The position numbers were made by a program, and so were the translations under genes. Shown here in pieces: positions 1,248-64,000 of a DNA stretch of 64,000 nucleotides. A model generated the notes under the pieces. The model ran no database searches. It was not told the DNA's origin and worked only from the letters and a program-made list of their open reading frames with translations. Numbering within the stretch: position 1 is the stretch's first letter; each line of letters starts with the position of its first letter. Source of the stretch: Phytoseiulus persimilis (lineage: Eukaryota; Arthropoda; Arachnida; Mesostigmata; Phytoseiidae); the NCBI GenBank assembly GCA_037576195.1, contig CM075104.1:812775-876774 (forward strand). The letters are read 5' to 3'.

Positions 1248-1437
1248 NNNNNNNNNNNNNNNNNNNNNNNNNNNNNNNNNNNNNNNNNNNNNNNNNNNNN
1301 NNNNNNNNNNNNNNNNNNNNNNNNNNNNNNNNNNNNNNNNNNNNNNNNNNNNNNNNNNNNNNNNNNNNNNNNNNNNNNNNNNNNNNNNNNNNNNNNNNNN
1401 NNNNNNNNNNNNNNNNNNNNNNNNNNNNNNNNNNNNN
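1248..1437. other. assembly gap (190 N)
   Basis: A run of N separates the 72-bp satellite from the Helitron coding region. The helicase part of the Helitron would be expected in or beyond this gap on the minus strand. What follows on the far side is satellite, so the element is either truncated here or the gap is underestimated. Confidence 0.99.
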
Positions 1438-4400: not shown

Positions 4401-4808
4401 GGCTTGCGCACTTCGTTCTCGTAGAGTACCCAATCTCAATGCGCGTTGTTGGGTATCTTCTTCGGCACGGGCTTGCGCGTTGCGTTCTCGTAGAGTACCC
4501 AATCTCAATGCGCGTTGTTGGGTATCTTCTTCGGCACGGGCTTGCGCGTTGCGTTCTCGTAGAGTACCCAATCTCGATGCTCGCTGTTGGGTATCTTCTT
4601 CGGCACGGGCTTGCGCACTTCGTTCTCGTTGAGTGCTCAATCTCGATGCGCGTTGTTCGTCACTTTCATTCTCGCGAACTTCCGTGGTTTGAGTCCTCGA
4701 AGTTGCCAATCTCACCTCACATTCCTCGTCAGTTTCAGAAGCCCTTCGAGCTCTTTTCCTTCGAGCATCCGATGTGCTCCGGGATAAGTTTCGACGCTTC
4801 GGAGGCAT
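1438..4808 (-). CDS. Helitron A Rep protein, C-terminally truncated
   Basis: Rolling-circle replication initiator of a Helitron. The open frame runs from the first real ATG (4808; upstream in-frame codons begin at a TTG) into the N gap, about 1120 codons. Order: basic N-terminus, twelve 23-residue charged repeats (residues about 55-335), a Cys-rich putative zinc finger (CRFCRALKF, then CC), the Helitron N-terminal domain, the HUH motif region with GLPHAHILIW (near 2360), and the catalytic Tyr region YICKYVNKG (near 1935). Family knowledge: HUH binds metal and the Tyr nicks DNA. A SF1/Pif1 helicase domain normally follows but is absent here, cut by the gap. The open frame has no internal stops, so this part may be recent. 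Both Rep motifs look intact. Confidence 0.9.
3840..4665 (-). repeat. 69-bp in-frame tandem repeat inside Helitron Rep
   Basis: Twelve near-identical 69-base units within the Helitron A coding region encode 23-residue repeats of the type RASRLGTLRERNAQARAEED. They are highly charged, rich in Arg, Glu and Gln, and probably helical. Units differ by single substitutions such as ASR/ALR and ERN/ERS. The homogeneity suggests recent expansion or gene conversion. Confidence 0.9.
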
Positions 4809-5082
4809 TTCAAACTCAAATAGATCCAACTGTTCCGATATTCACTTCACTTCGTCAATTATGCTCGGCGTGCTCACGGCCACCAAGCTATCTGCCTCAT
4901 GGGAAGTTCAGGTTCGCATGCGGCTCTCTTTAACTCCAAGACGACGCTGGATGAGAGAGCGGCGCGCTCCATTTGGGCTCACTTTCTGCAGCTCCATGTA
5001 GAGGGCGCTTCGGTGCTCTTTTAAGAATGAGCGGGTCTGTATCATAAGACTTCCGGCCAAGATGGCGGCCGGAGGTCGCCCC
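4809..5082. other. unassigned spacer
   Basis: Region between the Helitron start codon and the 45-bp array. I see no coding or structural feature apart from a short GC-rich inverted motif near 5055-5075 (CCGGCCAAGATGGCGGCCGG) just before the first monomer. Confidence 0.6.
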
Positions 5083-19500: not shown

Positions 19501-20437
19501 GGTGAAGAACGTAGTTTCTGTTTTGCGGAGCCTCTGCTTTCATCCTGAGAAGAAGGAGTGGGCCGCGAAGGTTCCGATTGCTGCTCATCATATAAACAGA
19601 GCACCTGCGAAGTCAACGGGTAAATCGCCGTTTGAGGCCCTATATGGATATTTGCCGCCGATGGAAGGTTTCTCGATGTTCGTGGACGAACAGCAGCCAC
19701 CGGGGGGATGGCGACCACCGCGAGCTATCCAGGAAGAAGTTCGAGCAGCTACCTTGAGAGCTCAGCAGGAGTACGCGGCGCAGTATGACAAGCATCGCAG
19801 GCCACACCGAATCCTTTATTCAGTGGGGGATATCGTAGTAGTAAGGAGACTCCCAGTGGCAACGGGAGAACCCACCAAGCTGCAGCCGAAGTATCGGGGG
19901 CCGTACACCGTCAGTATGGTGTTGCCAAAAGATACCTATCAGATCACGCAGTTAGCCAGCCGACCCTATATCACCACGGCCCATTGTTCGCAGTTGAAGT
20001 TGTTCAAAGTCGCATGCGGGAGTGGAGATGAGATCGTTTCAGATGAGACTGAGACAGACGAGAGCGAAGGACAACCTGTGTCGACCACCTACCGCGAGCA
20101 GGCATCACCGCGAGGCGAGTCATCGGAGGATAGTCGAATGGAAACCAGTGGAACCTCCACAGAGTCGCCGCAGACTGGAGGCCCGGAGGTCGATCAGCAA
20201 ACGCTAGAAACGGACGCTCAATTGGCAAGCCTCATGGAGAACACGCTCCACACCGTCGAGGACGAAGGAGCCGCGATTGGCCTGGATGAGGCGTTCATGG
20301 TTCCGCCTGATACTCCGCGAACCGATGGAGCCGAAGGAGGGACTCAAGACACTCCGGAGCAGGAAGAGGTCTCAGCCCAAGTAATTCCTTCCCGGCGATA
20401 TCCGCAAAGACGCCGTCGTCGGCCACAGTGGTATTGA
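16526..20437 (+). CDS. pol of gypsy A (PR-RT-RNase H-IN)
   Basis: 1303-residue polyprotein without internal stop. Protease is near residue 30, where ARVDTEAEVSVV shows DTE in place of the usual DTG, probably inactivating. Reverse transcriptase runs about 290-490 with IDYRKLNEQ and FPFIDDMI (the YxDD box as FIDD). RNase H is at about 605-730 (VHTDASGSGLGAAL). The integrase zinc domain is at about 825-870 (HEKSGHFG...CIPC). The integrase core is at about 890-1000 with D, D, E in HIDHVGPF, IVSDRGTAF and GSAERMVKN. The C-terminus is a long acidic Ser/Thr/Glu-rich tail ending in a basic RRYPQRRRRR patch. Confidence 0.93.
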   Translation: MEIESESERNEPASVKGVKHVLVNGTPWTARVDTEAEVSVVEETVAKELKLELRESPVRNITGVGRGTCSPLGQAVITMEADELKHREVTLTVLPDGSIGSRDILLGKDLLDRGLVTIYCGGDSWILKPEMLADFVSDWKDMERPRSSGEEVKLLAKENVTIPAQSIRFVETQLVGQHADAVLLNESNQSGLLCRVEQGEVFVPFSNSERIERKFKKGAVVARASVIVHDDVFTLEPMAQAEGSRIINQVQVSLRVEAKDVDFGAVIPQRIRDGLLEILNENPEVVATGLRDLGRTDLAKCTIEETAASGPIWPRPFRLSLVERDALKRIIEQMLETGIIRESASPYASPVMLVRKKDSSWRMVIDYRKLNEQTIRKNFPIPLVDDILDAVGGKNIHSTLDLAYGYFQIPMETGSERKAAFITPDGHYEPVVMMMGLANGPAVFQELMTKLQRVIGDKTVFPFIDDMICAADKYDEHLEQLRKIIMVLKEAGLKIRLKKCKFFGDTVEFLGFRISADGVRPGKDNLKAIEEFPRPSSTQDVRKFVGLASFFRRFIKGFASNASPMIALMKKDVEFQWSEDCERSFEDLKKKLVAEPVLAKFTKGCPIQVHTDASGSGLGAALMQKIDGHWKLIYAVSRRLSATEKNYHSTKLEQLAVTWACERFRHYLYGEKFEVVTDCVAVQALRSKTSTSPQIVRWLNKLAEFTFDIVHRAGTRMPHVDAFSRYPTEEADEENQTSGGGEQPSAQSEPTVKKVRQIRSFEHSIGMIQQQDESLQEKIQHILKNPTRFDDFTVKDGVLYRNEESDGQVKLLFVVPDSMRKYLCVIMHEKSGHFGKDKTLSLIKERFWFPGMRKYVHQHIRVCIPCLFKKEVAGKQEGLCNSSLPPKRPFYKVHIDHVGPFPKSSGREHIIVLVDSLTKFVVLEAVKSTESKYVIGFLEKLILNYGAPKVIVSDRGTAFTSRNFSKFVAERGITHVKTSTQRPQANGSAERMVKNVVSVLRSLCFHPEKKEWAAKVPIAAHHINRAPAKSTGKSPFEALYGYLPPMEGFSMFVDEQQPPGGWRPPRAIQEEVRAATLRAQQEYAAQYDKHRRPHRILYSVGDIVVVRRLPVATGEPTKLQPKYRGPYTVSMVLPKDTYQITQLASRPYITTAHCSQLKLFKVACGSGDEIVSDETETDESEGQPVSTTYREQASPRGESSEDSRMETSGTSTESPQTGGPEVDQQTLETDAQLASLMENTLHTVEDEGAAIGLDEAFMVPPDTPRTDGAEGGTQDTPEQEEVSAQVIPSRRYPQRRRRRPQWY

Positions 20438-25727: not shown

Positions 25728-26663
25728 TCAACTCCTTCCTGAATTGAACTTTCGACAGCGAAGCTTTTTCCAGCTTGCAGGCACAGTCTCAGCTTTCATG
25801 GATTTCAAAGCGATTCCGATAGCCTCCAAACAGGACGCTATCGTGAACTTCCACCAGTATTCGGTGACTGAAAACTCTTCCTCGCAATCCATGGAGTCAG
25901 CAAGATGCCGAACGTAGTTGCGAACGTAGATAGCCTTGAACGCGCGGATCACTCCCTGATCCATGGGTTGGATAAGCGTGGTGGTATTCGGATGGAGAAA
26001 TTTGATAATCACTCCTACATGAGTCATGTCTTGCGGATGACCGCCTGCATTATCCATAAGGAGCAGCATTTTAAATTGTAAACCTTTTTCGGCGAGATAC
26101 TCTTTCACTTGAGGGATGAAACTTTCGTTAAACCATTCCACTGTCAACTGTTTAGTGATCCAGCCTTTATTATTGTGCATCCAGTGCACCGGGAGGAGAT
26201 TCTTGTTCTTGAGAGCTCCTGGGTTCTTTGATTTGTGAATGAGCGTGGGCTCGAGAAGGAACCCGGCAGCATTCCCACACATGATGATAGTCACACGATC
26301 CTTGGAGGTCTTGAAGCCTCTGACCTTCCATTCGTTTCCGAAAATGTAGGTCCGAGAGGGCATCCTCTTCCAAAACAGACCCGTCTCGTCCATATTGAAA
26401 ACTCGTTCCGAGCGGTACTCGCCTCCCTTCATCATTGTCGGAAATGTGTTGGCGACAACCTCATTTGCCGCGAGCTCATCCGCGGAGGCTCCTTCTCCGT
26501 GTAACTTGAGATTTTTCAAATGGTCTCTCTTTTGGAATTTGCCGAACCAGCCTTTGCTCGCAGAAAACTCCGAGCGTCGGGACGGACCTGGATCTCCGTC
26601 CTGTTCCTCCAAGCCGCAGGAAGATGAGGGTTCTCTTGGAGAGATACGTCCGAAAAGGGTCTA
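25728..26663 (-). pseudogene. Tigger/jerky-like transposase fragment (DDE_1)
   Basis: About 295-310 minus-strand codons. The start of the fragment resembles the end of a CENP-B HTH domain (SASKGWFGKFQKRDHLKNLK). The DDE core shows acidic residues in FNMDETGLFWK, MLLLMDNAGGH and LIQPMDQGVIRAFKAIY. Both ends are missing: the N-terminal HTH upstream of 26663 and the C-terminus past VPASWKKL. It is a different family from the intact Tigger at 9254-10756. No terminal repeats are seen. Confidence 0.85.
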
Positions 26664-48680: not shown

Positions 48681-48941
48681 TGAAATATAGCCATATTTCT
48701 GGGTAGCTGGAATTGGTCTGAACCAATGCGAGGTCCAGAAGACGAGGACATTCTGACCGGAACCCTTTTCTGTGAGATACTGACAATGCCATCCATGAAG
48801 GACCTTCCGGTCTTCATGGACTGGCTCTTCTTTCCACAGTGGTATATATAACCCCAATAAAGCAATGCTCAGGGAGCTACTCTATTCTAACACTGAATCC
48901 CTGTCTCTTTATTGTGTGCCGTGCTCTTCCCATACTCTACA
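48681..48941 (+). repeat. copia LTR 1
   Basis: Starts TGAAATATAGCCATATTTCT (itself an inverted repeat) and ends CATACTCTACA. TATA box TATATATAA at about 48842-48850 and AATAAA at about 48855. The right edge is set by comparison with the primer site that follows; an alternative edge is 48945. Confidence 0.85.
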
Positions 48942-48945
48942 GATA

Positions 48946-48980
48946 CTTTTAGGTGAGGTGTCACCAACTGAGCTACGTGG
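48946..48980 (+). promoter_or_regulatory. putative primer-binding site for a half-tRNA
   Basis: The reverse complement of these bases begins GTAGCTCAGTTGGTGA and ends CACCTAAAAG, which reads as the 5' half of a tRNA (D-arm TAGCTCAGTTGGT through the anticodon region). Copia elements are known to prime from a tRNA cleaved in the anticodon loop, so a match to the tRNA 5' half and not its CCA end fits the family. The same bases follow the LTR at 58176. Confidence 0.6.
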
Positions 48981-49113
48981 ACCTTATTCCAACATTCGTT
49001 ATTGCGCACGAGTAATAGCGGACACCTTCATCTGGACAGTGTACTGTGAAGTGCGTGACTCTCAGAGTGTACAAGTGATCGTTCGGTGCATCGAGTGAAA
49101 GAAGTCCTCGTGA

Positions 49114-52100
49114 ATGATGAATCCATCTGAGAGTCAACGTGGTCAGGAAGATTCCACCAGCTCCCACGGCTTTAGTGATATAGGCGACGACATGCTCGAG
49201 CAATCAGCTAGACGAGTAGGCGAACAGCTGGAACAAGGCAAGGACGATGGGACAGATGATGAAGACGGTCTCAACATGACTCCAAGGCATCGTCCCCGTG
49301 AACTGGTGCAGTTGAAGCTGGACGGCTCAAATTACACGGCTTGGAAAACACTGATTTCTGCCGCATTGGATGCAGATCCATATGCGCTCGATGTTGCTCT
49401 GGGAAATCTGGCTCCGCCTCCTAAAACGAAGAACGACAAACAATCCAAAATCCAGAGGCAGAAGTTCGACGCTGGGAACCGAGCCGCCCGATGCACTCTG
49501 TTTGCATCGCTCCAAACTGCCCTCGCTGTTTCTCTGTTCTCCGGAAGATCCGACACCGTGGAAGCCCCAGAAATGTGGCGTGAGATAACCGGCAAGTTCA
49601 CCCTTACAAATGGTGCTCTGAAACGGTTGGCTCTCACCAAGTTCAACAACTTCGTGTACCAGGCGAACAAGACAGCGGGGGACAACCTCTTCCGATTCAA
49701 GCAGATAGCGGCTCATGTTGCGTCTCTTGGCGTCCAACTTCCTGATGATTTGAAGATAACGGTTCTTCTCGATAGTCTTCCCTCATCCTGGGAGGCCTTC
49801 AAGCAGGGTTTCAACGCGAGGGAGGATGCTCCTCAATCTCTGACACATCTGATGGCAGCTATCGAACTTGAGGCGATCAGAACAGGACGTTTCGATGCTA
49901 ACGAGGTTACGGCCTTGTTCTCGAGACTCCGTACATCCCGTAACAAACAGCATCGTCAGAAGACCTTCAACAGAACAAGTGTTAACCACACCGTCACTCG
50001 AACAACAGATAGAACCTGCTACAAGTGCGGGCGGACTGGACATCTCATGGCCCAGTGTCGCGTCCCAGTGCAGGGTGGGCACTCTGGCCGAAATCAACGA
50101 CAGCACCATCATCGTCCTCACCAACAACATCAGAATCACCAGAGGCGCCCCGGAAGGCGACCTGGAAACCGGCAAAATCAACAACCCGCAACCGCCAACC
50201 ACAGCGAAGTCCGCGCCATCGAGTTCTACAATTGTGAGTTAGAGCAAGCAGAGACAAACAGCGTGACTCCAGACAATGAGTTCATCGTGGATAGTGGAAC
50301 GAATTTTCATATGATCAACTCCAAAGATCATTTGATAAACTACGTACCGTATCCTCAGGCACGACAGGTCAGACTTGGGGGGTCTAGGACTCTGAGCGCT
50401 CCTGGGTCCGGGACTGCCTGTGTGACTTTCGTGCAGAATGGACAGCCCAAAACTGTTCTTCTGAAGGATGTACTGTATGTTCCACGACTCCGTCGGAATC
50501 TCTTGTCAGTCTCGAAACTCACTGATGATAGCTTCGATATGCGGATCTGTCTGGATTCTATCCTCATGACAAAAGGGAAGATGACCATACGAGCGATTCG
50601 TAAAAATGGCCTCTACCTTATGTACTCCACTGATACGGCCGAAGGACTCGAAGCTGAGGGCAAAGAAGAGAAGAAGAAAAAGATCAGCCTAACAAAAGTG
50701 CACCGAACATTCGCCCACATAAACGAAGGATGGCTTCAGTCAATGTTGGAGAGACAAGGCTATGAGGTGCTCAAGGATTTTACCAGCTGCGAGAGCTGTG
50801 TAAAAGGAAAAATGCATAGAGCGAGCTATCGATCAGAGCCGATGAGCTCCCGCGCCCCTCGGATCGGATACATCAGCAGTGATGTCTGTTTTGTGAGCAC
50901 CATGTCCTACGGAGGACATCAAGCATTCCTCACATTGACTGACGACTACAGCCGCTTCCGTAAAACGTATTTCCTCCGGAACAAAGTGGAAGTCTACGAT
51001 CGAGTAAAGGACTCCCTCAAATGGTTCAGGCTCAGAACCGGACAACAAGTGTATCATTTCCACTCGGACGGCGGGAGTGAGTTTGTCAACAGGAGATTGC
51101 AGTCACTCCTTACCTCAACAGGATGTGACTACTCCTACTCCCCCCCCTACACACCGCAGCTCAACTCGATTAGTGAACGCCTGAATCGTACACTATTGAA
51201 CCTCGCAAGAACCATGATTATCGACAGCCAGTTAAAGAAGGGGGTTTGGGGGGAAGCAATTTCATTTTCAACTTTCTGCCTGAATGTCACGAAATTCCTC
51301 GACCCTCCTGGCAAGACCCCATTCGAAATCATCACTGGTCACAAGCCCTATCTGGGTAGAGTTCTGAGGTTCGGAACCCGCTGTTGGTTCTACAATATCA
51401 AGCCTGACAAAACCAAGCTGGATCAGAGAGCCATCGCTGGAGCAGTCGTTGGCATCGACGAAGACGGTCTCAGTTACCGTGTACTCGAACTTGGAACGAC
51501 CAGGATTCATCGTATCCGAGATATCCTAGTGAAGGAACCAGCACCCCTTTTCGAGGAAGAAAATCAACTTCCCGAAAAACCTTCACAGAATTCCCCATCA
51601 ACGGATAGCAACGAGCCTCCAGCGAATGATGAAGAACCCTCTCCCAGCGACGCCGGCGGCCGAGACAGCGCCGATGACGACAGCAACGACTGGAGTGGAG
51701 AGAGAAATGTGGATGTCGAATTGGGGATCGGCCCGGATGATGTGCCCGGCGGTCCGACACCGCCTGCCGTAAGTTCGCGCGAACAGAGGACACCAAGGAA
51801 AACTCCGGCAACGGCGAGTGAAAAATCCGAGGGACGCAAGTATGCCTTGAGAAGTAGAGAAACTCTCAAGAAGCCGGATAGGTACCAGGCAGGGTTAGCC
51901 TTCCTTGCCACTAGTAGCGCTACGAAGTCTAACAAGACAAGCGAAACATTAGGCAGTTCAGAACAAGAGGTAGACGTACCTTCATGCCTAGCTGATGTTA
52001 ATCGCTCTAAGTACAAAAAGGATTGGCTCGCCGCAATGGCTTCGGAGCTAGAATCATTCAAGAGTAATGAGGTTTATCAGCTCGTAGATCCCGAGCCAGG

Positions 52101-53568
52101 ACTGCATGTCCTTTCGAATCATTGGATCTTTTCCTTGAAGTTTAACAAGGATGGCCAGATAGTGAGAAGGAAAGCTCGACTTGTCCTTGGAGGGCACAGA
52201 CAGAGAGCCGGGCTTGACTATGATACCCTGTTCTCGCCGGTTGCAAAGTACGAGACCATACGTACTGTCTTGTCAATGTGCGCCAAGGAAAGATTGTGGA
52301 TTTGGCAAGCCGATGTATCCACTGCCTTCCTATCTGCCCCACTGGACCGTACTCTATACATGAAACAGCCATCGGGAATGGAAGATGGAACTGGAAGATT
52401 ATGTAAGCTACTCAAAGCGATGTACGGAGCGGTCCAAAGTCCCCTTTGCTTCAACAAGTAGCTGAATGACACATTGCTAAACTTGAAATCCGTGAAACTC
52501 ACGAGGAGCAACCTCGACCCATGCCTCTATTTCTCAAACAGACCAAACAGAGTTTTCATCTTGGTTTGTGTCGATGATTGCCTGATCGCATCTGACAAAG
52601 AACAAACCAATGATGAGTTGGTCAAGGAACTCCAAGAGACGTTTGAACTCACCGCGAAGCCACTGGAATTCTTCTTGGGAATGAGGATTGAAATCTCCCC
52701 GGACCGAAGAACTATCCAGGTCAACCAGGCTCAATACATAGCAGAATTGCTAGACCGTTTCAACATGAAGAACTGCAAAGCATCTCCTGTTCCAATCGAT
52801 GCCACTTCGAAATCTGCCTTTGAGGGGGAAGTCGATCTCAGTCTCCCATATCGAGAACTAGTGGGGGGTTTGATGTTCGCTTCCGTGGTAAGCCGAGCAG
52901 AAATTTCGTACAGCGTGAACATGTTGGCTCGACACCTGGAGAGGCCTACCAAACATCTCTGGAACGTTGGTCTCAAAGTATTGAGGTATCTGTCTGGAAC
53001 ACGCTATTTCGGTCCGAAATACACTGGTGATGTCTCTGATGGCATAATCGCATACAGTGATCCTGACTGGAGTGGGTGCAAGGCAACCAGAAGATCCACG
53101 AGCAGCGCATTCATCCTATTCGGAGGCGCGTGCGTAGTTTGGTCCTCAAAGAGACAAAACTGCATTTCGCTGAGCTCCATGGGAAGCGAGATCATAGCCT
53201 GTAGCGAAATGGGAAAGTCCGTGGTCTGGTTGACCCGCCTTCTGGGAGAGGTCGGATACCCAGTGGTACCAACTCTTCGGGTGGACAACACAGGTTGTTT
53301 GAATCTCTTCACCACCACACAGGTCTCCAGAAAAAGTAAGCATATCGAAATTCGCTACTTTTGGATGAGAGAAAAGATTGAGGCTGGGGAGTTTAAAATC
53401 GAGCATTGTGTAACTGATAAGAACATCGCAGACATAGGAACTAAAGCTCTGCCTGAAACTCACTTTGTGGCACTGCGGAATCTTGCAGGCATCAAAAACC
53501 ATGTGGAGTTTCAAAGCAATCTTGGTGCTTCAGCTCGTGGCAACGGTCACCAGCTTCTTCGAGTATAG
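49114..53568 (+). pseudogene. copia gag-pol, copy 1 (defective)
   Basis: Same 1484-codon layout as copy 2 (58349-62803) but with a TAG at 52459-52461 in place of AAG, just before the RT catalytic box. That box reads LVCVDDCL (Tyr to Cys in YVDD), and the RNase H motif reads SSMGSEIIA where copy 2 has SSMESEIIA (catalytic Glu lost). Gag, zinc knuckle (CYKCGRTGHLMAQC), protease (FIVDSGTNFHMI) and integrase are unbroken. It could still supply Gag, protease and integrase, but not RT. Confidence 0.92.
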
Positions 53569-54007
53569 TTCCTGCTATTTGCCCCTCTGCATACGGTCCA
53601 ACCAACCATGCATGATCTCAGAATTGAGTCCGGAACACTTCCCAGTGGATTGCATCCTCACGTTGGACGGCTGCAGAGAAAAAGCGTCACCAACGGTCGC
53701 ATGTTTGTTTCCCGACGGACAGGTGTTTGGAGGCCAAGACATCTGGGAAGCGTATTACAACTATACACATCCGAATCCACCAAATCCTGTTCCAAACCCA
53801 TCAACAAAGACGAACTTTCTCCTACTTTACGCGGTAATCCTCACAACGATCGTAGTGATCTATGGCGGTACTAGCTGTTCCCGATGCGTCATTCAAACAT
53901 GGCGTCGGCAGCAGTACCAGCGTCTCAGCAGAGAAGATCAGCCTTCTGCTGCTGGGGCTAACATGAACACCGGCTCGCCCTATGGCGCCACCACTCAAAA
54001 CATCTAG
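53501..54007 (+). CDS. sense-strand small type I membrane protein (env-like), copy 1
   Basis: 168 residues from ATG 53501; it overlaps the end of pol by 68 bases in another frame. Residues 1-20 form a signal peptide (MWSFKAILVLQLVATVTSFF). An ectodomain of about 85 residues has at least five Cys and one glycosylation site (NYTH). A hydrophobic segment follows (FLLLYAVILTTIVVIYGG, residues about 103-120), then a short Cys-containing, basic cytoplasmic tail. No match to a named family is recognised. It is conserved in copy 2 with only a few substitutions. AATAAA follows at 54035-54040. A role at membranes is inference from topology and from its env-like position. Confidence 0.75.
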   Translation: MWSFKAILVLQLVATVTSFFEYSSCYLPLCIRSNQPCMISELSPEHFPVDCILTLDGCREKASPTVACLFPDGQVFGGQDIWEAYYNYTHPNPPNPVPNPSTKTNFLLLYAVILTTIVVIYGGTSCSRCVIQTWRRQQYQRLSREDQPSAAGANMNTGSPYGATTQNI

Positions 54008-54034
54008 GATTCGCTCATTCACGGTGATCTCTCA

Positions 54035-54040
54035 AATAAA
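54035..54040 (+). terminator. AATAAA polyadenylation signal after the env-like ORF
   Basis: AATAAA 28 bases after the stop codon, between the convergent sense and antisense genes. If used it would end sense transcripts before the 3' LTR. Conserved in copy 2 at about 63270-63275. Confidence 0.5.
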
Positions 54041-54081
54041 CGGAAAGCAACTTCTAGCCAAATAAGAACACTCTCACTTCC

Positions 54082-55691
54082 TCATGAATAATACTTGACA
54101 AAATTTTTACATTGTTGGCCAAACTTGTCATGCTCATCATCAATGGCAAATTCTTCATGTCCAACATATAGACGTACTGTCATTGTGTTCCTGAGCGGAG
54201 TTGTTCTCCGGACGAAAATGCAGATCTTGTTAATCAGCGACTTACAAATTCGATTGTAACTCATGATCGTGCACTGGTACCGATTGACGGGTGTGTACAG
54301 AATCATTGGTGGCGGCTCGGTGATAACAACGCCCGGTGTTGTACTGTCAATATCAGTGACAGCCGGATCGGTTGAGGAAGAGGAGAGAAAGGACTTGGAT
54401 GTTTCATCGGTGGTTGATGACGGTCCTTCTGTAGTTGATGTTTCCAACTTGTCTTCAACGGTTGTTGATGTTGTAACGTCGGGAGCCTCTGAGGTAGTCG
54501 ATGATGAAGCTTTCTTGGCCTGACCAGTGGTTGTCGTTGAGCGAACCGTGGTGAGGTTTGTGACAACCGGCTTGCGAGAGGTGGTCGATGTTGTGGTACC
54601 GACCGGCCTCGGGGTGGTACGTTGAGTTGGGCGTGTCGTAGTCGTGATTCTAGTGGACACGTTCATACGCACCGGGTTTGCCTCGAGGACGACGAGATCA
54701 TCCGAGGTCTCAATCATGGCCTCTGGGCCAGACTTGCTCTTCTGTTCATTGACAGCCCGAGATTCTGCGATAGGCACAACCGATAGTGGTCTGGCGGAAA
54801 AAGAACGCACAGACGCTGAGAACAAATGGATGGTGGATGATGGAGAAATCAGACTTGTCCAGCTGGTCATTCTGAGGGAGGATTTAGAGTAGTGAACTCT
54901 GTCCCTCAATGATGGAGATGATGACCGGAACAACGCTGGAGTCTGAAGGACTCGTGTTGGCTGAATCAAGGTCGGCATTATGATACTCCGACGAGAAAGC
55001 CTTGGGAAAACTGAGGGCGTGACCACTCTGCGCTCAGAAGAAAGCTCAGCAAATCCCGAAGGTGAAACAGTGAAAGTGCTAGATCTATAAACAGGTTCAG
55101 GGAACGGAGATCTAGTAGACAGAAGATGCCTTGACTTTGATGAATCCATCTCACGACGGAGAGAAGCTCCGAGAAGATCTCTCTGGTAGGCTAACTTCTG
55201 CTCCGTTGTGAAAGTCGTCAAGCTTGCGGAAGTTTTGAGAGTACGCGTAGGCGAGATCATGGTTGAGATCACAGAAGGAACAACTGGTTCCGATGCAGAG
55301 TCAAATGATGTGAGTTCTGAAGGGACCGGAATCACATGCAGCAGAAAAAGAGCGGAAGATACCTCAAGCCACGTGGTCGATGGCTCAAGGGAAATTGAAG
55401 AACTGTCCATCGAGCGAGATGTAGACAACGAGAAAAACTCAGATGAGCAACACGCACTTTGATGATCCTCTGGGCAAAGTGTTTGGTAAAAGCACTCTCT
55501 TCATCCACTGATGAAAAGTCCGGATGTCTCACGGAAGGGAGCACATACGACACAAAGACTCCCCAAACGAAATAAAGACTGAGAGCTAAACTCAGCAGAA
55601 AGAGGATGACCCCGGCCACTCGGCTGGCCAGCGACTTGGATTGAGACATCGATTTCATCGCAAGTATATTGTGTAATGTGGAAATCCACAT
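54082..55691 (-). CDS. antisense gene 1: predicted type II membrane protein with mucin-like stalk, copy 1
   Basis: Two minus-strand frames. The upstream one (ATG 55691, or 55658) encodes a short N-terminus and a hydrophobic segment (GVILFLLSLALSLYFVWGVF). The downstream one (54082-55410) is 442 residues, dominated by Ser/Thr/Pro (TTTTRPTQRTTPRPVGTTTS) and ending in a Cys-containing domain (YQCTIMSYNRICKSLINKIC ... GQQCKNF). A GTATGT donor after 55549 and a CAG acceptor before 55402 (intron 55403-55548, 146 bases) join them in frame; this is a prediction. Topology would be N-terminus inside, mucin-like stalk and Cys-rich head outside. No family is recognised. The tail is conserved in copy 2. 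Confidence 0.6.
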
Positions 55692-55915
55692 CGAGTCAGG
55701 TCTTGTATACCTCCGAACTCGATGAGAAAGGGGTCCCCTCTTTCAACACTACTTGGAGTGTTGTGAGAGTTGTTGTTTAATCCGACACGGATAGAAAATA
55801 TGCATTCGTGGTCGTTGGATTACTCTGAGAAGCTGATCGGAGTATCGATAACTCTCGAAAAGCATAAACAAACTCCTGAGATTGAAAACAAATGGTTTCT
55901 GAGATGGTTCATGTC

Positions 55916-57453
55916 TCAAGCGCGGACGCACTTGGACGCCGTCCCAGAGGGACTGCATGCTGTGGACTTTACTGGAACACTGCATCTCAGAAAATGCGTC
56001 ACGGGCGCATTACCATCAACAACCAGGCAGGTTTCTTCGTACCGATGTTTACAGGCCCAACCATCGTCATAACGCTCGCACTGGAAATACAGCGTAGAGA
56101 CTCTTTTGCTGGATGGTGGCGCTGCATCGGGGATGGGACTGCGGTCGGTAACAGGTTCCGGATCGATCGGATTCTGCGATGGATTCGGATTGATTCTTGC
56201 TACTGAATCCAGAGAGTGGAACATGAGAATGTTTCCAGTTACAACTGTAACAAAGCAGCGAATTAGTCAGTGCCGGAGAAGATTGTTGGAACTACCATGG
56301 GTCTGTAAGACCGTCTCTGATCAAGAGAATTTGTGACTGACGTACCTGTGATCAGGAGGAGGAGGAATCCGATGATCCATTTGCGTTTCTTCACTATCGT
56401 TCGAGCATCCTGACGAATGGAGCTCCAGCGAGCAGTTGGTACATTCGTGCTCTCCACGTGTTCACACGGAACCCGAGTCGATTCTTCGGTTTGGGCCTCA
56501 GTTGACTGCAGGTTTTCGGCAATGGCGAGTCTCACGGAGTTGAGGGAGGACCGCTGAGATCTCACTGTAGTTGAGAGCCGGTCCACCTCGGCCTGTTGAG
56601 AACGCACGCTGGTCGCAAGGCATGAAACAGTCGAGCCTAGTGTGGTGACTGCAGACGTGAGATTCTTAACCTCCGTGTTCAGGATACACTGCGTCGAAAC
56701 GACGTCGGTAGTATCTTTTCCAAACTTCGTGACCGTGGCAGATTGCTGATCCTGACGAGTTCGGATGTCCTTGTCTGCTTGCTCCAGGCTTCGATGTCGT
56801 TGATTGGTACGGTCAGCGAAATCTCGAAAGGCTGAATCCATCCGAATGAGACGAACTTCGAAGTCTTGTTGACTATCTTGAACATCCTTGATTTGTTTCT
56901 TCACGAATTCAGAAATCATCTTGGAGTTCTCTTCGGCTTGACTCATGGAACGGCTCAGTTTCAATAACTCGGCCTGAATCTCGGGGGACGCGCTCGGTTG
57001 AGATGAACCGACAGACTGCAGATCAATCGAAAGCTTGCCCAGGTCGTCATTAAGAGTGGTTAGCTCTTTTCTGAGACTGGCTGTAACTTCATGCAAGTAA
57101 CTGATCTGTTCAGTCGTGGCCATGCTGTTTGCAAAGGCGTCCTGCCGTTCGATCAAAGCCTCTTGAGCTGCTGCGCTCTGGACACTGACTCGGAGCTGTT
57201 TTTGCGATTCCACTTGGAGCTCTTCTATCGAATGAAGAATTGGCTTAATTTGCTCGGTGGATGCTACAGACTTCGCGAAGAGATCAAGCTGTACCAGGAG
57301 TCGCGAGAAGTTGTCAGCGTTCTGATTCGTCCGGCTCACCAGCTCGCGAATTACTGTTTGCATGTCGCGGGTCGACGAAAGCTGGTTCACGCGGGAAATC
57401 ATGTCGTTCCGATACAGTTCAATGTTGGTTTCCATGCGAGCGACACGATCCAT
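55916..57453 (-). CDS. antisense gene 2: coiled-coil type II membrane protein with Cys-rich head, copy 1
   Basis: Exon 57453-56346 encodes about 370 residues with long heptad-like helices (Leu/Ile/Val spaced among Gln, Ser, Glu). It ends in KKRKWIIGFLLLLIT, the start of a membrane segment after a basic stop-transfer-like patch. Donor GTACGT follows at 56345; acceptor TTTGTTACAG ends at 56245; the intron is 101 bases. Exon 56244-55916 continues in frame, completes the hydrophobic segment, then gives a Pro-rich stalk (PNPSQNPIDPEPV) and a domain with six Cys (FQCERYDDGWACKHRYEETC and beyond). The first ATG is at 57453; a 54-codon ORF upstream (57634-57473) could be a leader exon. Topology is type II. 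No family is recognised. Confidence 0.65.
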
Positions 57454-57634
57454 GACTAAACGACTTTGGCTTTCAACCCGTGAAATCCCAACGACATTGG
57501 AGACGACAAACGAGCTTTCTCGTATCAAAGGTCCCTACCGGTTGGCCAGCGGACTCTGGGGATGGGGCTGCCTCTGTCGATGTCATTGGATGGTCTTCGG
57601 ACACGTTCACCATAGAGAGCTGTTCTTCGGACAT

Positions 57635-57915
57635 GATCACAAGCTGAATCTTCGGAACGTAGGACGAAGGTACCTCTCAGTTCGTAGACTGAGGAGGGAA
57701 TGAACAGCACCGACTATGCAACGGGTTGGAGACGATCTCAGTCTCTAGCCGCGTTCTCAAATGTCGTGCTTGAAGTTTCAAATGTAGTGCACGTCCGCCT
57801 CATGGAGCGGGGTAGGTATTGAGTTTCTCGTTCACTTCTTGAGGAAGAAAAATACTCTGCATCGAGAAATTGGCCCAGTGATGCCAAGTGACGAATAATA
57901 CTCAAAAGCAAATCC
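57635..57915. other. copia internal region before the 3' LTR
   Basis: Short region between the antisense genes and the 3' LTR. No open frame of note is seen. It probably contains the antisense promoter and the element's polypurine tract (GAGGAAGAAAAA at 57840-57851 is a candidate, although it lies about 65 bases from the LTR). Confidence 0.4.
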
Positions 57916-58176
57916 TGAAATATAGCCATATTTCTGGGTAGCTGGAATTGGTCTGAACCAATGCGAGGTCCAGAATACGAGGTCATTCTGACCGGAACAC
58001 TTTTCTGTGAGATACTGACAATGCCATCCATGAAGGACCTTCCGGTCTTCAGGGACTGGCTCTTCTTTCCACAGTGGTATATATAACCCCAATAAAGCAA
58101 TGCTCAGCGAGCTACTCTATTCTAACACTGAATCTCTGTCTCTTTATTGTGTGCCGTGCTCTTCCCATACTCTACA
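57916..58176 (+). repeat. copia LTR 2 (shared between the two copies)
   Basis: 261 bp, colinear with LTR 1 without indels and with about six substitutions. It serves as 3' LTR of copy 1 and 5' LTR of copy 2. The TATA box and AATAAA are kept. Confidence 0.88.
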
Positions 58177-58348
58177 GATACTTCTAGGTGAGGTGTCACC
58201 AACTGAGCTACGTGGACCTTATTCCAACATTCGTTATTGCGCACGAGTAATAGCGGACACCTTCATCTGGACAGTGTACTGTGAAGTGCGTGACTCTCAG
58301 AGTGTACAAGTGATCGTTCGGTGCATCGAGTGAAAGAAGTCCTCGTGA

Positions 58349-61300
58349 ATGATGAATCCATCTGAGAGTCAACGTGGTCAGGAAGATTCCACCAGCTCCC
58401 ACGGCTTTAGTGATATAGGCGACGACATGCCCGAGCAATCAGCTAGACGAGTAGGCGAACAGCTGGAACAAGGCAAGGACGATGGGACAGATGATGAAGA
58501 CGGTCTCAACATGACTCCAAGGCATCGTCCCCGTGAACTGGTGCAGTTGAAGCTGGACGGCTCAAATTACACGGCTTGGAAAACACTGATTTCTGCCGCA
58601 TTGGATGCAGATCCATATGCGCTCGATGTTGCTCTGGGAAATCTGGCACCGCCTCCTAAAACGAAGAACGACAAACAATCCAAAATCCAGAGGCAGAAGT
58701 TCGACGCTGGGAACCGTGCCGCCCGATGCACTCTCTTTGCATCGCTCCAAACTGCCCTCGCTGTTTCTCTGTTCTCCGGAAGATCCGACACCGTGGAAGC
58801 CCCAGAAATGTGGCGTGAGATAACCGGCAAGTTCACCCTTACAAATGGTGCTCTGAAACGGTTGGCTCTCACCAAGTTCCACAACTTCGTGTACCAGGCG
58901 AACAAGACAGCGGGGGACAACCTCTTCCGATTCAAGCAGATAGCGGCTCATGTTGCGTCTCTTGGCGTCCAACTTCCTGATGATTTGAAGATAACGGTTC
59001 TTCTCGATAGTCTTCCCTCATCCTGGGAGGCCTTCAAGCAGGGTTTCAACGCGAGGGAGGATGCGTCTCAATCTCTGACACATCTGATGGCAGCTATCGA
59101 ACTTGAGGCGATCAGAACGGGACGTTTCGATGCTAACGAGGTCACGGCCTTGTTCTCGAGACTCCGTACATCCCGTAACAAACAGCATCGTCAGAAGACC
59201 TTCAACAGAACAAGTGTTAACCACACCGTCACTCGAACAACAGAGAGAACCTGCTACAAGTGCGGGCGGACTGGACATCTCATGGCCCAGTGTCGCGTCC
59301 CAGTGCAGGGTGGGCACTCTGGCCGAAATCAACGACAGCACCATCATCGTCCTCAGCAACAACATCAGAATCACCAGAGGCGCCCCGGAAGGCGACCTGG
59401 AAACCGGCAAAATCAACAACCCGCAACCGCCAACCACAGCGAAGTCCGCGCCATCAAGTTCTACAATTGTGAGTTAGAGCAAGCAGAGACAAACAGCGTG
59501 ACTCCAGACAATGAGTTCATCGTGGATAGTGGAACGAATTTTCATATGATCAACTCCAAAGATCATTTGATAAACTACGTACCATATCCTCAGGCACGAC
59601 AGGTCAGACTTGGGGGGTCTAGGACTCTGAGCGCTCCTGGGTCCGGGACTGCCTGTGTGACTTTCGTGCAGAATGGACAGCCCAAAACTGTTCTTCTGAA
59701 GGATGTACTGTATGTTCCACGACTCCGTCGGAATCTCTTGTCAGTCTCGAAACTCACTGATGATAGCTTCGATATGCGGATCTGTCTGGATTCTATCCTC
59801 ATGACAAAAGGGAAGATGACCATACGAGCGATTCGTAAAAATGGCCTCTACCTTATGTACTCCACTGATACGGCCGAAGGACTCGAAGCTGAGGGCAAAG
59901 AAGAGAAGAAGAAAGAGATCAGCCTAACAAAAGTGCACCGAACATTCGCCCACATAAACGAAGGATGGCTTCAGTCAATGTTGGAGAGACAAGGCTATGA
60001 GGTGCTCAAGGATTTTCCCAGCTGCGAGAGCTGTGTAAAAGGAAAAATGCATAGAGCGAGCTATCGATCAGAGCCGATGAGCTCCCGCGCCCCTCGGATC
60101 GGATACATCAGCAGTGATGTCTGTTTTGTGAGCACCATGTCCTACGGAGGACATCAAGCATTCCTCACATTGACTGACGACTACAGCCGCTTCCGTAAAA
60201 CGTATTTCCTCCGGAACAAAGTGGAAGTCTACGATCGAGTAAAGGACTCCCTCAAATGGTTCAGGCTCAGAACCGGACAACAAGTGTATCATTTCCACTC
60301 GGACGGCGGGAGTGAGTTTGTCAACAGGAGATTGCAGTCACTCCTTACCTCAACAGGATGTGACTACTCCTACTCCCCCCCATACACACCGCAGCTCAAC
60401 TCGATTAGTGAACGCCTGAATCGTACACTATTGAACCTCGCAAGAACCATGATTATCGACAGCCAGTTGAAGAAGGGGGTTTGGGGGGAAGCAATTTCAT
60501 TTTCAACTTTCTGCCTGAATGTCACGAAATTCCTCGACCCTCCTGGCAAGACCCCATTCGAAATCATCACTGGTCACAAGCCCTATCTGGGTAGAGTTCT
60601 GAGGTTCGGAACCCGCTGTTGGTTCTACAATATCAAGCCTGACAAAACCAAGCTGGATCAGAGAGCCATCGCTGGAGCAGTCGTTGGCATCGACGAAGAC
60701 GGTCTCAGTTACCGTGTACTCGAACTTGGAACGACCAGGATTCATCGTATCCGAGATATCCTAGTGAAGGAACCAGCACCCCTTTTCGAGGAAGAAAATC
60801 AACTTCCCGAAAAACCTTCACAGAATTCCCCATCAACGGATAGCAACGAGCCTCCAGCGAATGATGAAGAACCCTCTCCCAGCGACGCCGGCGGCCGAGA
60901 CAGCGCCGATGACGACAGCAACGACTGGAGTGGAGAGAGAAATGTGGATGTCGAATTGGGGATCGGCCCGGATGATGTGCCCGGCGGTCCGACACCGCCT
61001 ACCGTAAGTTCGCGCGAACAGAGGACACCAAGGAAAACTCCGGCAACGGCGAATGAAAAATCCGAGGGACGCAAGTATGCCTTGAGAAGTAGAGAAACTC
61101 TCAAGAAGCCGGATAGGTACCAGGCAGGGTTAGCCTTCCTTGCCACTAGTAGCGCTACGAAGTCTAACAAGACAAGCGAAACATTAGGCAGTTCAGAACA
61201 AGATATAGACGTACCTTCATGCCTAGCTGATGTTAATCGCTCTAAGTATAAAAAGGATTGGCTCGCCGCAATGGCTTCGGAGCCAGAATCATTCAAGAGT

Positions 61301-62803
61301 AATGAGGTTTATCAGCTCGTAGATCCCGAGCCAGGACTGCATGTCCTTTCGAATCATTGGATCTTTTCCTTGAAGTTTAACAAGGATGGCCAGATAGTGA
61401 GAAGGAAAGCTCGACTTGTCCTTGGAGGGCACAGACAGAGAGCCGGGCTTGACTATGATACCCTGTTCTCGCCGGTTGCAAAGTACGAGACCATTCGTAC
61501 TGTCCTGTCAATGTGCGCCAAGGAAAGATTGTGGATTTGGCAAGCCGATGTATCCACTGCCTTCCTATCTGCCCCACTGGACCGTACTCTTTACATGAAA
61601 CAGCCATCGGGAATGGAAGATGGAACTGGAAGAGTATGCAAGCTACTCAAAGCGATGTACGGAGCGGTCCAAAGTCCCCTTTGCTTCAACAAGAAGCTGA
61701 ATGACACATTGCTAAACTTGAAATCCGTGAAACTCACGAGGAGCAACCTTGACCCATGCCTCTATTCCTCAAACAGACCAAACAGAGTTTTCATCTTGGT
61801 TTATGTCGATGATTGCCTGATCGCATCTGACAAAGAACAAACCAATGATGAGTTGGTCAAGGAACTCCAAGAGACGTTTGAACTCACCGCGAAGCCACTG
61901 GAATTCTTCTTGGGAATGAGGATTGAAATCTCCCCAGACCGAGGAACTATCCAGGTCAACCAGGCTCAATACATAGCAGAATTGCTAGACCGTTTCAACA
62001 TGAAGAACTGCAAAGCATCTCCTGTTCCAATCGATGCCACTTCGAAATCTGCCTTTGAGGGGGAAGTCGATCTCAGTCTCCCATATCGAGAACTAGTGGG
62101 GGGTTTGATGTTCGCTTCCGTGGTAAGCCGAGCAGAAATTTCGTACAGCGTGAACATGTTGGCTCGACACCTGGAGAGGCCTACCAAACATCTCTGGAAC
62201 CTTGGTCTCAAAGTATTGAGGTATCTGTCTGGAACACGCTATTTCGGTCCGAAATACACTGGTGATGTCTCTGATGGCATAATCGCATACAGTGATTCTG
62301 ACTGGAGTGGGTGCAAGGCAACCAGAGGATCCACGAGCAGCGCATTCATCCTATTCGGAGGCGCGTGCGTAGTTTGGTCCTCAAAGAGACAAAACTGCAT
62401 TTCGCTGAGCTCCATGGAAAGCGAGATCATAGCCTGTAGCGAAATGGGAAAGTCCGTGGTCTGGTTGACCCGCCTTCTGGGAGAGGTCGGATACCCAGTG
62501 GTACCAACTCTTCGGGTGGACAACACAGGTTGTTTGAATCTCTTCACCACCACACAGGTCTCCAGAAAAAGTAAGCATATCGAAATTCGCTACTTTTGGA
62601 TGAGAGAAAAGATTGAGGCTGGGGAGTTTAAAATCGAGCATTGTGTAACTGATAAGAACATCGCAGACATAGGAACTAAAGCTCTGCCTGAAACTCACTT
62701 TGTGGCACTGCGGAATCTTGCAGGCATCAAAAACCATGTGGAGTTTCAAAGCAATCTTGGTGCTTCAGCTCGTGGCAACGGTCACCAGCTTCTTCGAGTA
62801 TAG
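58349..62803 (+). CDS. copia gag-pol polyprotein, copy 2 (intact, 1484 aa)
   Basis: Single open frame, as in copia. Gag N-terminal domain at residues about 60-300 (LKLDGSNYTAWKTLISAALD), followed by the zinc knuckle CYKCGRTGHLMAQC (about 306-319). Protease FIVDSGTNFHMI. Integrase with pre-integrase zinc region (HRTFAHINEGW ... CESCVKGK) and core residues in SSDVCF, HFHSDGGSEF and SISERLNRT. RT with WIFSLKFNKDGQIVRRKARL, ADVSTAFLSAPLD and the catalytic YVDD. RNase H with SDSDWSG, SSMESEIIA and DNTGC. All catalytic motifs look intact. ATG 58349 lies about 170 bases after the LTR. Likely a source copy; activity is not proven. Confidence 0.95.
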   Translation: MMNPSESQRGQEDSTSSHGFSDIGDDMPEQSARRVGEQLEQGKDDGTDDEDGLNMTPRHRPRELVQLKLDGSNYTAWKTLISAALDADPYALDVALGNLAPPPKTKNDKQSKIQRQKFDAGNRAARCTLFASLQTALAVSLFSGRSDTVEAPEMWREITGKFTLTNGALKRLALTKFHNFVYQANKTAGDNLFRFKQIAAHVASLGVQLPDDLKITVLLDSLPSSWEAFKQGFNAREDASQSLTHLMAAIELEAIRTGRFDANEVTALFSRLRTSRNKQHRQKTFNRTSVNHTVTRTTERTCYKCGRTGHLMAQCRVPVQGGHSGRNQRQHHHRPQQQHQNHQRRPGRRPGNRQNQQPATANHSEVRAIKFYNCELEQAETNSVTPDNEFIVDSGTNFHMINSKDHLINYVPYPQARQVRLGGSRTLSAPGSGTACVTFVQNGQPKTVLLKDVLYVPRLRRNLLSVSKLTDDSFDMRICLDSILMTKGKMTIRAIRKNGLYLMYSTDTAEGLEAEGKEEKKKEISLTKVHRTFAHINEGWLQSMLERQGYEVLKDFPSCESCVKGKMHRASYRSEPMSSRAPRIGYISSDVCFVSTMSYGGHQAFLTLTDDYSRFRKTYFLRNKVEVYDRVKDSLKWFRLRTGQQVYHFHSDGGSEFVNRRLQSLLTSTGCDYSYSPPYTPQLNSISERLNRTLLNLARTMIIDSQLKKGVWGEAISFSTFCLNVTKFLDPPGKTPFEIITGHKPYLGRVLRFGTRCWFYNIKPDKTKLDQRAIAGAVVGIDEDGLSYRVLELGTTRIHRIRDILVKEPAPLFEEENQLPEKPSQNSPSTDSNEPPANDEEPSPSDAGGRDSADDDSNDWSGERNVDVELGIGPDDVPGGPTPPTVSSREQRTPRKTPATANEKSEGRKYALRSRETLKKPDRYQAGLAFLATSSATKSNKTSETLGSSEQDIDVPSCLADVNRSKYKKDWLAAMASEPESFKSNEVYQLVDPEPGLHVLSNHWIFSLKFNKDGQIVRRKARLVLGGHRQRAGLDYDTLFSPVAKYETIRTVLSMCAKERLWIWQADVSTAFLSAPLDRTLYMKQPSGMEDGTGRVCKLLKAMYGAVQSPLCFNKKLNDTLLNLKSVKLTRSNLDPCLYSSNRPNRVFILVYVDDCLIASDKEQTNDELVKELQETFELTAKPLEFFLGMRIEISPDRGTIQVNQAQYIAELLDRFNMKNCKASPVPIDATSKSAFEGEVDLSLPYRELVGGLMFASVVSRAEISYSVNMLARHLERPTKHLWNLGLKVLRYLSGTRYFGPKYTGDVSDGIIAYSDSDWSGCKATRGSTSSAFILFGGACVVWSSKRQNCISLSSMESEIIACSEMGKSVVWLTRLLGEVGYPVVPTLRVDNTGCLNLFTTTQVSRKSKHIEIRYFWMREKIEAGEFKIEHCVTDKNIADIGTKALPETHFVALRNLAGIKNHVEFQSNLGASARGNGHQLLRV

Positions 62804-63242
62804 TTCCTGCTGTTTGCCCCTCTGCATACGGTCCAACCAACCATGCATGATCTCAGAATTGAGTCCAGAACACTTCCCAGTTGATTGCATCCTCACGTTG
62901 GACGGCTGCAGAGAAAAAGCGTCACCAACGGTCGCATGTTTGTTTCCCGACGGACAGGTGTTTGGAGGCCAAGACATCTGGGAAGCGTATTACAACTATA
63001 CACATCCGAATCCACAAAATCCTGTTCCAAACCCATCAACAAAGACGAACTTTCTCCTACTTTACGCGGTAATCCTCACGACGATCGTAGTGATCTATGG
63101 CGGTACTAGCTGTTCCCGATGCGTCATTCAAACATGGCGTCGGCTGCAGTACCAGCGTCTCAGCACAGAAGATCAGCCTTCTGCTGCTGGGGCTAACATG
63201 AACACCGGCTCGCCCTATGGCGCCACCACTCAAAACATCTAG
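62736..63242 (+). CDS. sense-strand small type I membrane protein (env-like), copy 2
   Basis: 168 residues, same signal peptide, Cys pattern, NYTH site, membrane segment and tail as 53501-54007. Differences are few (for example CCLPL for CYLPL, NPQNP for NPPNP, STEDQ for SREDQ) and none breaks the frame. It overlaps pol by 68 bases. An open, similar reading frame in both copies supports a real gene. Confidence 0.75.
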   Translation: MWSFKAILVLQLVATVTSFFEYSSCCLPLCIRSNQPCMISELSPEHFPVDCILTLDGCREKASPTVACLFPDGQVFGGQDIWEAYYNYTHPNPQNPVPNPSTKTNFLLLYAVILTTIVVIYGGTSCSRCVIQTWRRLQYQRLSTEDQPSAAGANMNTGSPYGATTQNI

Positions 63243-63316
63243 GATTCGCTCATTCACGGTGATCTCTCAAATAAACGGAAAGCAACTTCTAGCCAAATAA
63301 GAACACTCTCACTTCC

Positions 63317-64000
63317 TCATGAATAATACTTGACAAAATTTTTACATTGTTGGCCAAACTTGTCATGCTCATCATCAATGGCAAATTCTACATGTCCAAC
63401 ATATAGACGTACTGTCATTGTGTTCCTGAGCGGAGTTGTTCTCCGGACGAAAATGCAGATCTTGTTAATCAGCGACTTACAAATTCGATTGTAACTCATG
63501 ATCGTGCACTGGTACCGATTGACGGGTGTGTACAGAATCATTGGTGGCGGCTCGGTGATAACAACGCCCGGTGTTGTACTGTCAACATCAGTGACAGCCG
63601 GATCGGTTGAGGAAGTGGAGAGAAAGGACTTGGAAGTTTCATCGGTGGTTGATGACGGTCCTTCTGTAGTTGATGTTTCCAACTTGTCTTCAACGGTTGT
63701 TGATGTTGTAACGTCGGGAGCCTCTGAGGTAGTCGATGATGAAGCTTTCTTGGCCTGACCAGTGGTTGTCGTTGAGCGAACCGTTGTGAGGTTTGTGACA
63801 ACCGGCTTGCGAGGGGTGGTCGATGTTGTGGTTCCGACCGGCCTCAGGGTGGTACGTTGAGTCGGACGTGTCGTAGTCGTGATTCTAGTGGACACGTTCA
63901 TACGCACCGGGTTTGCCTCGAGGACGACGAGATCATCCGAGGTCTCAATCATGGCCTCTGGGCCAGATTTGCTCTTCTGTTCATTGACAGCCCGAGATTC
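63317..64000 (-). CDS. antisense gene 1, copy 2 (partial at window end)
   Basis: C-terminal 220-odd codons of the mucin-like antisense protein, open to the window edge. It is nearly identical to copy 1, including the Thr-rich stalk and the Cys-containing C-terminus. A few substitutions (for example STPRK for STSRK and GHVEF for GHEEF) leave the frame intact. Confidence 0.65.
   Translation of the reverse strand, partial: ESRAVNEQKSKSGPEAMIETSDDLVVLEANPVRMNVSTRITTTTRPTQRTTLRPVGTTTSTTPRKPVVTNLTTVRSTTTTGQAKKASSSTTSEAPDVTTSTTVEDKLETSTTEGPSSTTDETSKSFLSTSSTDPAVTDVDSTTPGVVITEPPPMILYTPVNRYQCTIMSYNRICKSLINKICIFVRRTTPLRNTMTVRLYVGHVEFAIDDEHDKFGQQCKNFVKYYS

Follow-up and report, generated by a model that had tools for sequence, protein, structure and literature searches.

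Predicted membrane-protein genes on both strands between pol and the 3′ long terminal repeat of a Ty1/copia retrotransposon in Phytoseiulus persimilis

Animal copia elements are, to our knowledge, usually thought to lack a surface protein, and a Ty1/copia retrotransposon in Phytoseiulus persimilis raises the question of what three predicted membrane-protein genes are doing between its pol gene and its 3′ long terminal repeat (LTR). The element lies in a stretch of contig CM075104.1 of 64,000 nucleotides (nt), analysed whole and here called the window, in which an original prediction had placed one open reading frame (ORF) on the sense strand and two on the antisense strand. All three lie where it had put them (coordinates are those of the window; + is the sense strand):

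53501..54007 (+): ORF A, 168 amino acids (aa), ATG at 53501 and stop codon ending at 54007; its start overlaps the end of pol
54035..54040 (+): sense AATAAA in the gap between A and B
54082..55691 (−): ORF B, convergent with A; frameshifted in the first copy of the element (copy 1), in pieces 55691–55332 and 55500–54082
55916..56244 (−): ORF C exon 2, the head, six of whose cysteines are shared by all 9 aligned rows
56245..56345 (−): predicted ORF C intron, 101 base pairs (bp), GTACGT...TTTGTTACAG, directly after the membrane segment
56346..57634 (−): ORF C exon 1, a coiled-coil-like part and the start of the transmembrane (TM) segment; frameshifted near its start in copy 1

ORF C as a whole (57634–55916) shares the antisense strand with B and precedes it there; B does converge on A as described at first, whereas C points the same way as B. 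The cassette is real, common to divergent families of one genome, and selected. We put at about one half (0.5) the probability that it is an ancient, selected two-strand membrane cassette, probably serving capsid passage at the cell surface or from cell to cell.

What excludes chance is not ORF length but the return of the same order and strands in many elements. The genome searched comprised 181 Mb in 127 contigs (contigs C1–C4 of 54.7, 52.0, 38.9, and 28.1 Mb). A search with ORF A returned 214 candidates, of which 150 were scored and all 150 were matches; at least 80 of these 150 followed a scored RVT_2 domain on its own strand by no more than 2.5 kb (72 of the 80 at 656–903 nt), a lower bound given that 150 of 443 RVT_2 candidates were scored. 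No A match among the 150 lay beside an opposite-strand RVT_2 alone, as judged against the 150 scored RVT_2 domains. The C head exon, with matches taken at E ≤ 10, was found 74 times, with 60 matches antisense behind an A match (56 of them at 1.4–2.0 kb) and none of the 74 near A on the same strand only. The 60 include a few fragments of a single locus, and many of them have E-values without meaning by themselves; what gives the recurrence weight is the constancy of strand and distance.

We named families by their likeness to the window copy, F1 being the window family and F2b (L051, L055) a branch near F2. Identity to F1 at the end of pol is 61–65% in F2, 62% in F2b, 65–68% in F3, 46–47% in F5, and 35–37% in F7; the order and strands of the cassette recur at 46–68%, and A with a C-like gene also at 35–37%. 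The original prediction had called for the same frames in other family members, and A, the B head, and the C head were read in F1 and in its relatives F2, F2b, F3, and F5. Matches of B heads, in tails read directly, were significant in F2, F2b, and F3. The F5 B head (18% identity to the window; no match at E 0.01) was recognised from its place, strand, stalk, and Cys/Tyr pattern, and the F5 C head (E 0.8) from its place, strand, and Cys pattern, with six cysteines aligning. At one F7 locus, a sense coiled-coil-like frame of 328 codons stands behind ORF A (L061:325–1308, +), followed by an antisense TM segment, donor, acceptor, and Cys-containing stretch; the last gave no match in the C-head search and is taken for C from its position, splice sites, and loose Cys pattern. 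The sense frame could pass for the cytosolic part of C turned into a separate gene. Trees were built from 13 loci: in the pol tree F1, F2, F3, and F7 form separate groups with starred support, and in the A tree F1, F3, and F7 do so, the three F2 rows standing at an unresolved fork; F5 forms a single long branch, and the deep order of the pol and A trees is not comparable. Among families, the cytosolic part is the most variable and the outer heads are the most conserved.

Purifying selection, on which the original prediction had depended, is well shown between families for A and for the B head, and is weak within F1. By the Nei–Gojobori method, with silent sites saturated in most other pairs, the ratio of nonsynonymous to synonymous divergence (dN/dS) of A is 0.16–0.30 in all six F1–F2 pairs (proportions of nonsynonymous and synonymous differences, pN and pS, of 0.31–0.32 and 0.63–0.72), 0.18 in the one computable pair of four between F2 and F3, and 0.48–0.49 between F3 and F7. 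For the B head it is 0.17–0.27 among F1, F2, and F2b (0.17 between F1 and F2, two of three pairs computable; 0.27 between F2 and F2b) and 0.48–0.49 between F3 and F5. Selection on the C head is supported by its invariant cysteines. The claim of between-family selection covers A and the B head, with the coiled coil and the mucin-like stalk outside it; C exon 1 shows 21–29% identity between families, at saturated silent sites.

ORF A is predicted to encode a membrane protein of type I, with one TM segment between a Cys-rich ectodomain of ~80 aa and a basic cytosolic tail. TM and topology calls here and below were made with Kyte–Doolittle windows (threshold 1.6) and flanking charges, and they bear out the three membrane proteins first proposed, A of type I and B and C of type II, with the C segment of F2 and F3 below the threshold. 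A hydrophobic segment at the start of A passes in F5 and F7 and fails in F1, F2, and F3, in which a signal peptide is a guess. Four cysteines (C31, C38, C52, and C59) are invariant across 11 aligned rows, and near the end of the tail lies a conserved Y..T motif, mostly PY..T (53950–54004 in the window), which may be a sorting or Gag-contact signal. A profile search with A returned five unnamed proteins (P0001–P0005; E 5e-32 to 3e-13) on contigs of 1.3–6.5 kb; aligned with window rows, they keep the four cysteines and Y..T in 7/7 rows, with PY..T in six and VY..T in P0004 (P0005 is without the N-terminal part).

The gap between the stop codons of A and B measures 51–79 bp in seven tails (F1, F2, F2b, F3) and, by coordinates, 95 bp in F5. 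Six of these eight tails have a sense AATAAA and the other two CATAAA or TATAAA; inspection by eye also showed AATAAA or ATTAAA on the antisense strand in F2 (2/2), F2b, and F5. Judging from these motifs, the gap looks like the place where two mRNAs finish tail to tail.

ORF B comprises an N-terminal TM segment, a Ser/Thr/Pro-rich stalk, and a C-terminal Cys head (54085–54336), in agreement with the mucin-like stalk and Cys-containing head initially described. When open in the window family, it is one antisense frame of 552–555 codons, stop to stop. From hydropathy and flanking charge in an open family copy, the TM segment falls at residues 28–46 of 536 and is predicted to be of type II; Ser/Thr/Pro reach 55% within one 60-residue stretch of the stalk between it and the head, and C31, C39, and C76 of the head are invariant in 8 rows. 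At both F2 loci read (L050, L053), B is split by an antisense intron (GTGAGT...CAG) which is absent from the open B frames of F1 and from F2b (one locus, L051), a case of antisense intron gain or loss within a retroelement. The B frame of F3 changes near the place of this intron.

ORF C combines a coiled-coil-like segment with a Cys head, again as described at first. Exon 1, when open in the window family, has 469–470 codons; its residues 41–400 hold 10 Pro or Gly and many charged residues, and we call it coiled-coil-like from this composition. The TM candidate (residues 419–437 of 456 in exon 1, preceded by KKRK; predicted type II) scores 1.61 against the threshold of 1.6, and the segment also passes in F2b and F5. 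The frame is broken just after this segment in all six families compared (F1, F2, F2b, F3, F5, F7), where a GT[AG]NGT donor was found, five times by script and in F3 by eye (no script donor was returned at two F3 loci because the donor starts inside the anchor string). The donors read GTACGT in F1, GTGAGT in F2, F2b, and F5, GTATGT in F3, and GTAAGT in F7, and a pyrimidine-rich AG acceptor follows 68–156 nt beyond the TM anchor. At the strand-wide rate, 0.05–0.13 such donors are expected per 45-nt window. The sequences of the splice sites are conserved, and splicing itself is predicted.

Searches for relatives of the cassette proteins gave no significant Pfam match, the best E-values being 0.011 (DUF4328) with 11 A rows, 0.35 with 9 C-head rows, and 0.069 with 8 B-head rows. 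Structure prediction, proposed as a check from the outset, covered A and the C head: the A model, built from seven sequences, has a mean predicted local distance difference test (pLDDT) score of 69 and a predicted template modelling (pTM) score of 0.45 (residues 21–90 at pLDDT ~77–90), without a fold match, and the C head model (pLDDT 46) is unusable. A retroviral or errantiviral Env is a single sense-strand precursor glycoprotein with a recognisable Env domain; here, two of three proteins are antisense-encoded and Pfam recognised no such domain.

From this anatomy we infer how A, B, and C may be expressed, oriented, assembled, and used. A would be made from the sense strand, whose mRNA can end at the AATAAA just after A, and B and C would come from antisense transcripts starting near the 3′ LTR, that of C being spliced and, in F2, that of B too. 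Antisense introns would survive each round because sense RNA alone is reverse transcribed; this escape from removal is expected from the way LTR elements replicate. Each of the three proteins would be anchored in the membrane and expose a small Cys-rich head, the mucin-like stalk of B keeping a binding head off the surface; on the inner side the cytosolic coiled coil of C, or the conserved tail motif of A, would tie Gag capsids to the complex. Such an arrangement would probably serve capsid passage at the cell surface or between cells, for instance from soma to germ line. We entertain more tentatively, and hold to be somewhat less probable, the stronger proposal that an animal copia lineage encodes, across its two strands, a surface apparatus of several subunits in which one sense type I protein and two spliced antisense type II proteins together carry copia capsids through or between cells. 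If true, this would be the first animal copia (Pseudoviridae) element known to us with an envelope-like or cell-transfer stage from its own genes, independent of known Env.

Several observations weigh against a role in capsid passage, or against the generality of the cassette. Homologues of the cassette proteins were found neither among Env proteins and fusogens nor in Pfam or the PDB, and the A model matched no PDB or viral fold. An A was detected behind 79 of the 150 scored RVT_2 domains and not behind the other 71; 14 of the 74 C-head matches are without an A partner, two of them strong (99% and 85%). The coiled coil is not universal, the C of F5 lacking it and having only a short part before its TM segment, and the B head was not seen in F7. 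At the end of C exon 1, hydropathy in F2 and F3 stays below the threshold in every window, since the membrane segment there extends into the intron. Where it can be computed, dN/dS of the C head between families is 0.27–0.78. Within F1, the signal in pooled pN/pS (dead copies included) is weak, at 0.62 for A, 0.65 for B, 0.77 for C exon 1, and 0.48 for C exon 2, and a six-frame control in this family failed to single out the coding frame for B or C exon 1. Finally, genomic RNA would have to read through the internal AATAAA.

The lack of Env or fusogen homology is also what would be expected if A, B, and C were membrane accessory factors shielding the element or the host cell (receptor decoys, superinfection exclusion, or counter-defence) with no role in transmission. 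Small Cys-rich heads and a mucin-like stalk suit decoys as well, and the cytosolic parts vary among families. In all five lineages compared by their pol, A follows immediately on that gene, and its cytosolic tail motif is conserved, features more like those of a partner of the element's particle; we regard the accessory-factor explanation as unlikely, at perhaps one chance in a few. Regulation of the element by its antisense transcripts (through double-stranded RNA, promoter interference, or feedback), with the antisense ORFs of little import, has precedents in HBZ, the APH proteins, and the non-coding antisense RNAs of micropia (PMC10186651, PMC7264820), and would fit the weak within-family selection on B and C. 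Between families, however, where silent sites are mostly saturated, their heads have kept both the reading frame and the cysteines, and the C frame is split right after the TM segment in six families; we consider such a chiefly regulatory role improbable. Still less credible is that one Env of retroviral type was split, or was misread as several pieces: its location between pol and the 3′ LTR would be right, and A has a TM segment and, in F5 and F7, a hydrophobic start, yet two of the three genes are antisense, there is no Env domain, and the strand disfavours it. Captured host genes or chance ORFs of a single copy, which the broken frames of copy 1 might suggest, are very improbable, with fixed order and strand across many elements and selection between families, chance itself being refuted.

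The proposed cassette for capsid passage can be set beside several known systems. Grande and RIRE2, two of the plant elements considered here, are gypsy elements, and the antisense protein ASP of HIV-1 overlaps env. Envelope-less Drosophila MDG1 elements encode a small sense TM protein, sORF2, tied to capsid transfer; sORF2-like proteins measure 63–107 aa with an ectodomain of ~30 aa and are all forward (105 listed, chosen for an N-myristoylation motif, which 4/6 MDG1 proteins have and which is hence not strict) (PMC11952523). A resembles sORF2 of this Ty3/gypsy group in its single TM segment, N-terminal ectodomain, basic patch after the TM segment, and residence in an LTR element without Env, and differs in its 168 aa, Cys-rich ectodomain of ~80 aa, copia rather than gypsy setting, and two antisense partners. 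No A row begins with MG, which with its longer ectodomain sets A apart from sORF2/FAST-like proteins. The Drosophila Copia capsid is reported to move between cells (PMC11835246).

Like B and C, HIV-1 ASP is an antisense-encoded membrane protein of a retroelement, placed in the viral envelope by a cited title (PMC10186651); it is a single protein with two TM segments, unlike two separate type II genes overlapping no sense gene of note. HTLV HBZ and the APH proteins are spliced antisense genes driven from the 3′ LTR (PMC10186651), similar to C in its predicted antisense splicing, but they are regulators (nuclear for HBZ and APH-2) and not membrane proteins. The plant elements Grande, RIRE2, and Retand (the last a gypsy element) likewise have conserved antisense ORFs downstream of pol and ahead of the 3′ LTR, with products that are nuclear or associated with TRP28 (PMC7264820, PMC11963269); the present cassette differs in its copia background, membrane proteins, and introns. 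Plant Sirevirus elements are copia with an extra env-like ORF, as here, but are plant-specific, and no antisense membrane genes are named in what is available of their description. Bdelloid rotifer Juno and Vesta are animal LTR elements with extra ORFs (ORF3), some with TM segments, and the accessible part of their description mentions no antisense ORF (PMC5408684). While antisense ORFs and env-like ORFs are each already known in LTR elements, our literature search found no report of sense and antisense membrane genes combined in one, in keeping with the novelty first claimed for this locus.

These conserved membrane genes offer a testable candidate for how some animal copia capsids might pass between cells, and hint that such elements may work at the cell surface, or cross it, by some means not yet recognised. 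They also suggest a route by which a retroelement could keep introns, namely by carrying the gene on the strand left out of reverse transcription, and provide a case of antisense coding in an LTR element independent of a frame inside another gene.

The window holds two tandem copies of the element with one LTR common to both, copy 2 extending beyond the window end:

48681..48994 (+): 5′ LTR of copy 1, 314 bp, TG...CA ends; aligns with the stretch from 57916, its right end taken from 3′ LTRs of other copies
49114..53568 (+): copy 1 gag-pol, with an in-frame TAG at 52459–52461
57916..58229 (+): 3′ LTR of copy 1 and 5′ LTR of copy 2
58349..62803 (+): copy 2 gag-pol, open
62736..63242 (+): copy 2 ORF A, 97% identical
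63317..64000 (−): copy 2 ORF B, cut at the window end; continues in L039, where one stop codon interrupts it

The copia identity given in the original prediction holds: Pfam finds Retrotran_gag_2, zf-CCHC, rve (586–681), and RVT_2 (985–1228) in copy 2 gag-pol, which is the copia order, so that the integrase core lies upstream of RVT_2 behind a copia-type gag, as in Ty1/copia (Pseudoviridae), and the LTR ends are TG...CA. Copy 1 is degraded, with the TAG in pol, frameshifts in B and C, and, before the LTR at 57916–58229, the absence of ~121 bp present in L039, L041, and L042. That B and C of this copy are broken had been missed by the original prediction, as had the antisense introns; open versions of B and C lie elsewhere in the genome. 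Among 12 window-family tails (copy 1 and L039–L049), A is open at full length in 8, B as a single frame in 5, and C exon 1 in 3; some of the rest apparently carry nested insertions or deletions. Positions 48681–64000 together with L039 are arranged LTR-internal-LTR-internal-LTR, and AGTCGT occurs near both outer ends of this array, 2 nt off an exact target-site duplication.

The window is rich in transposons; by eye we noted a Helitron-like ORF, two pogo/Tigger-like transposases, and a Gypsy pol, the candidate transposon ORFs being as follows:

1242..4829 (−): candidate transposon ORF
9254..10756 (−): candidate transposon ORF
16526..20437 (+): candidate transposon ORF
25728..26612 (−): candidate transposon ORF

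Between positions 5042 and 8839 runs a long satellite-like array of ITPPELESNGQIGLG repeats with several frames open, and the same array also occurs behind an F5 element (L060:1807–2799).

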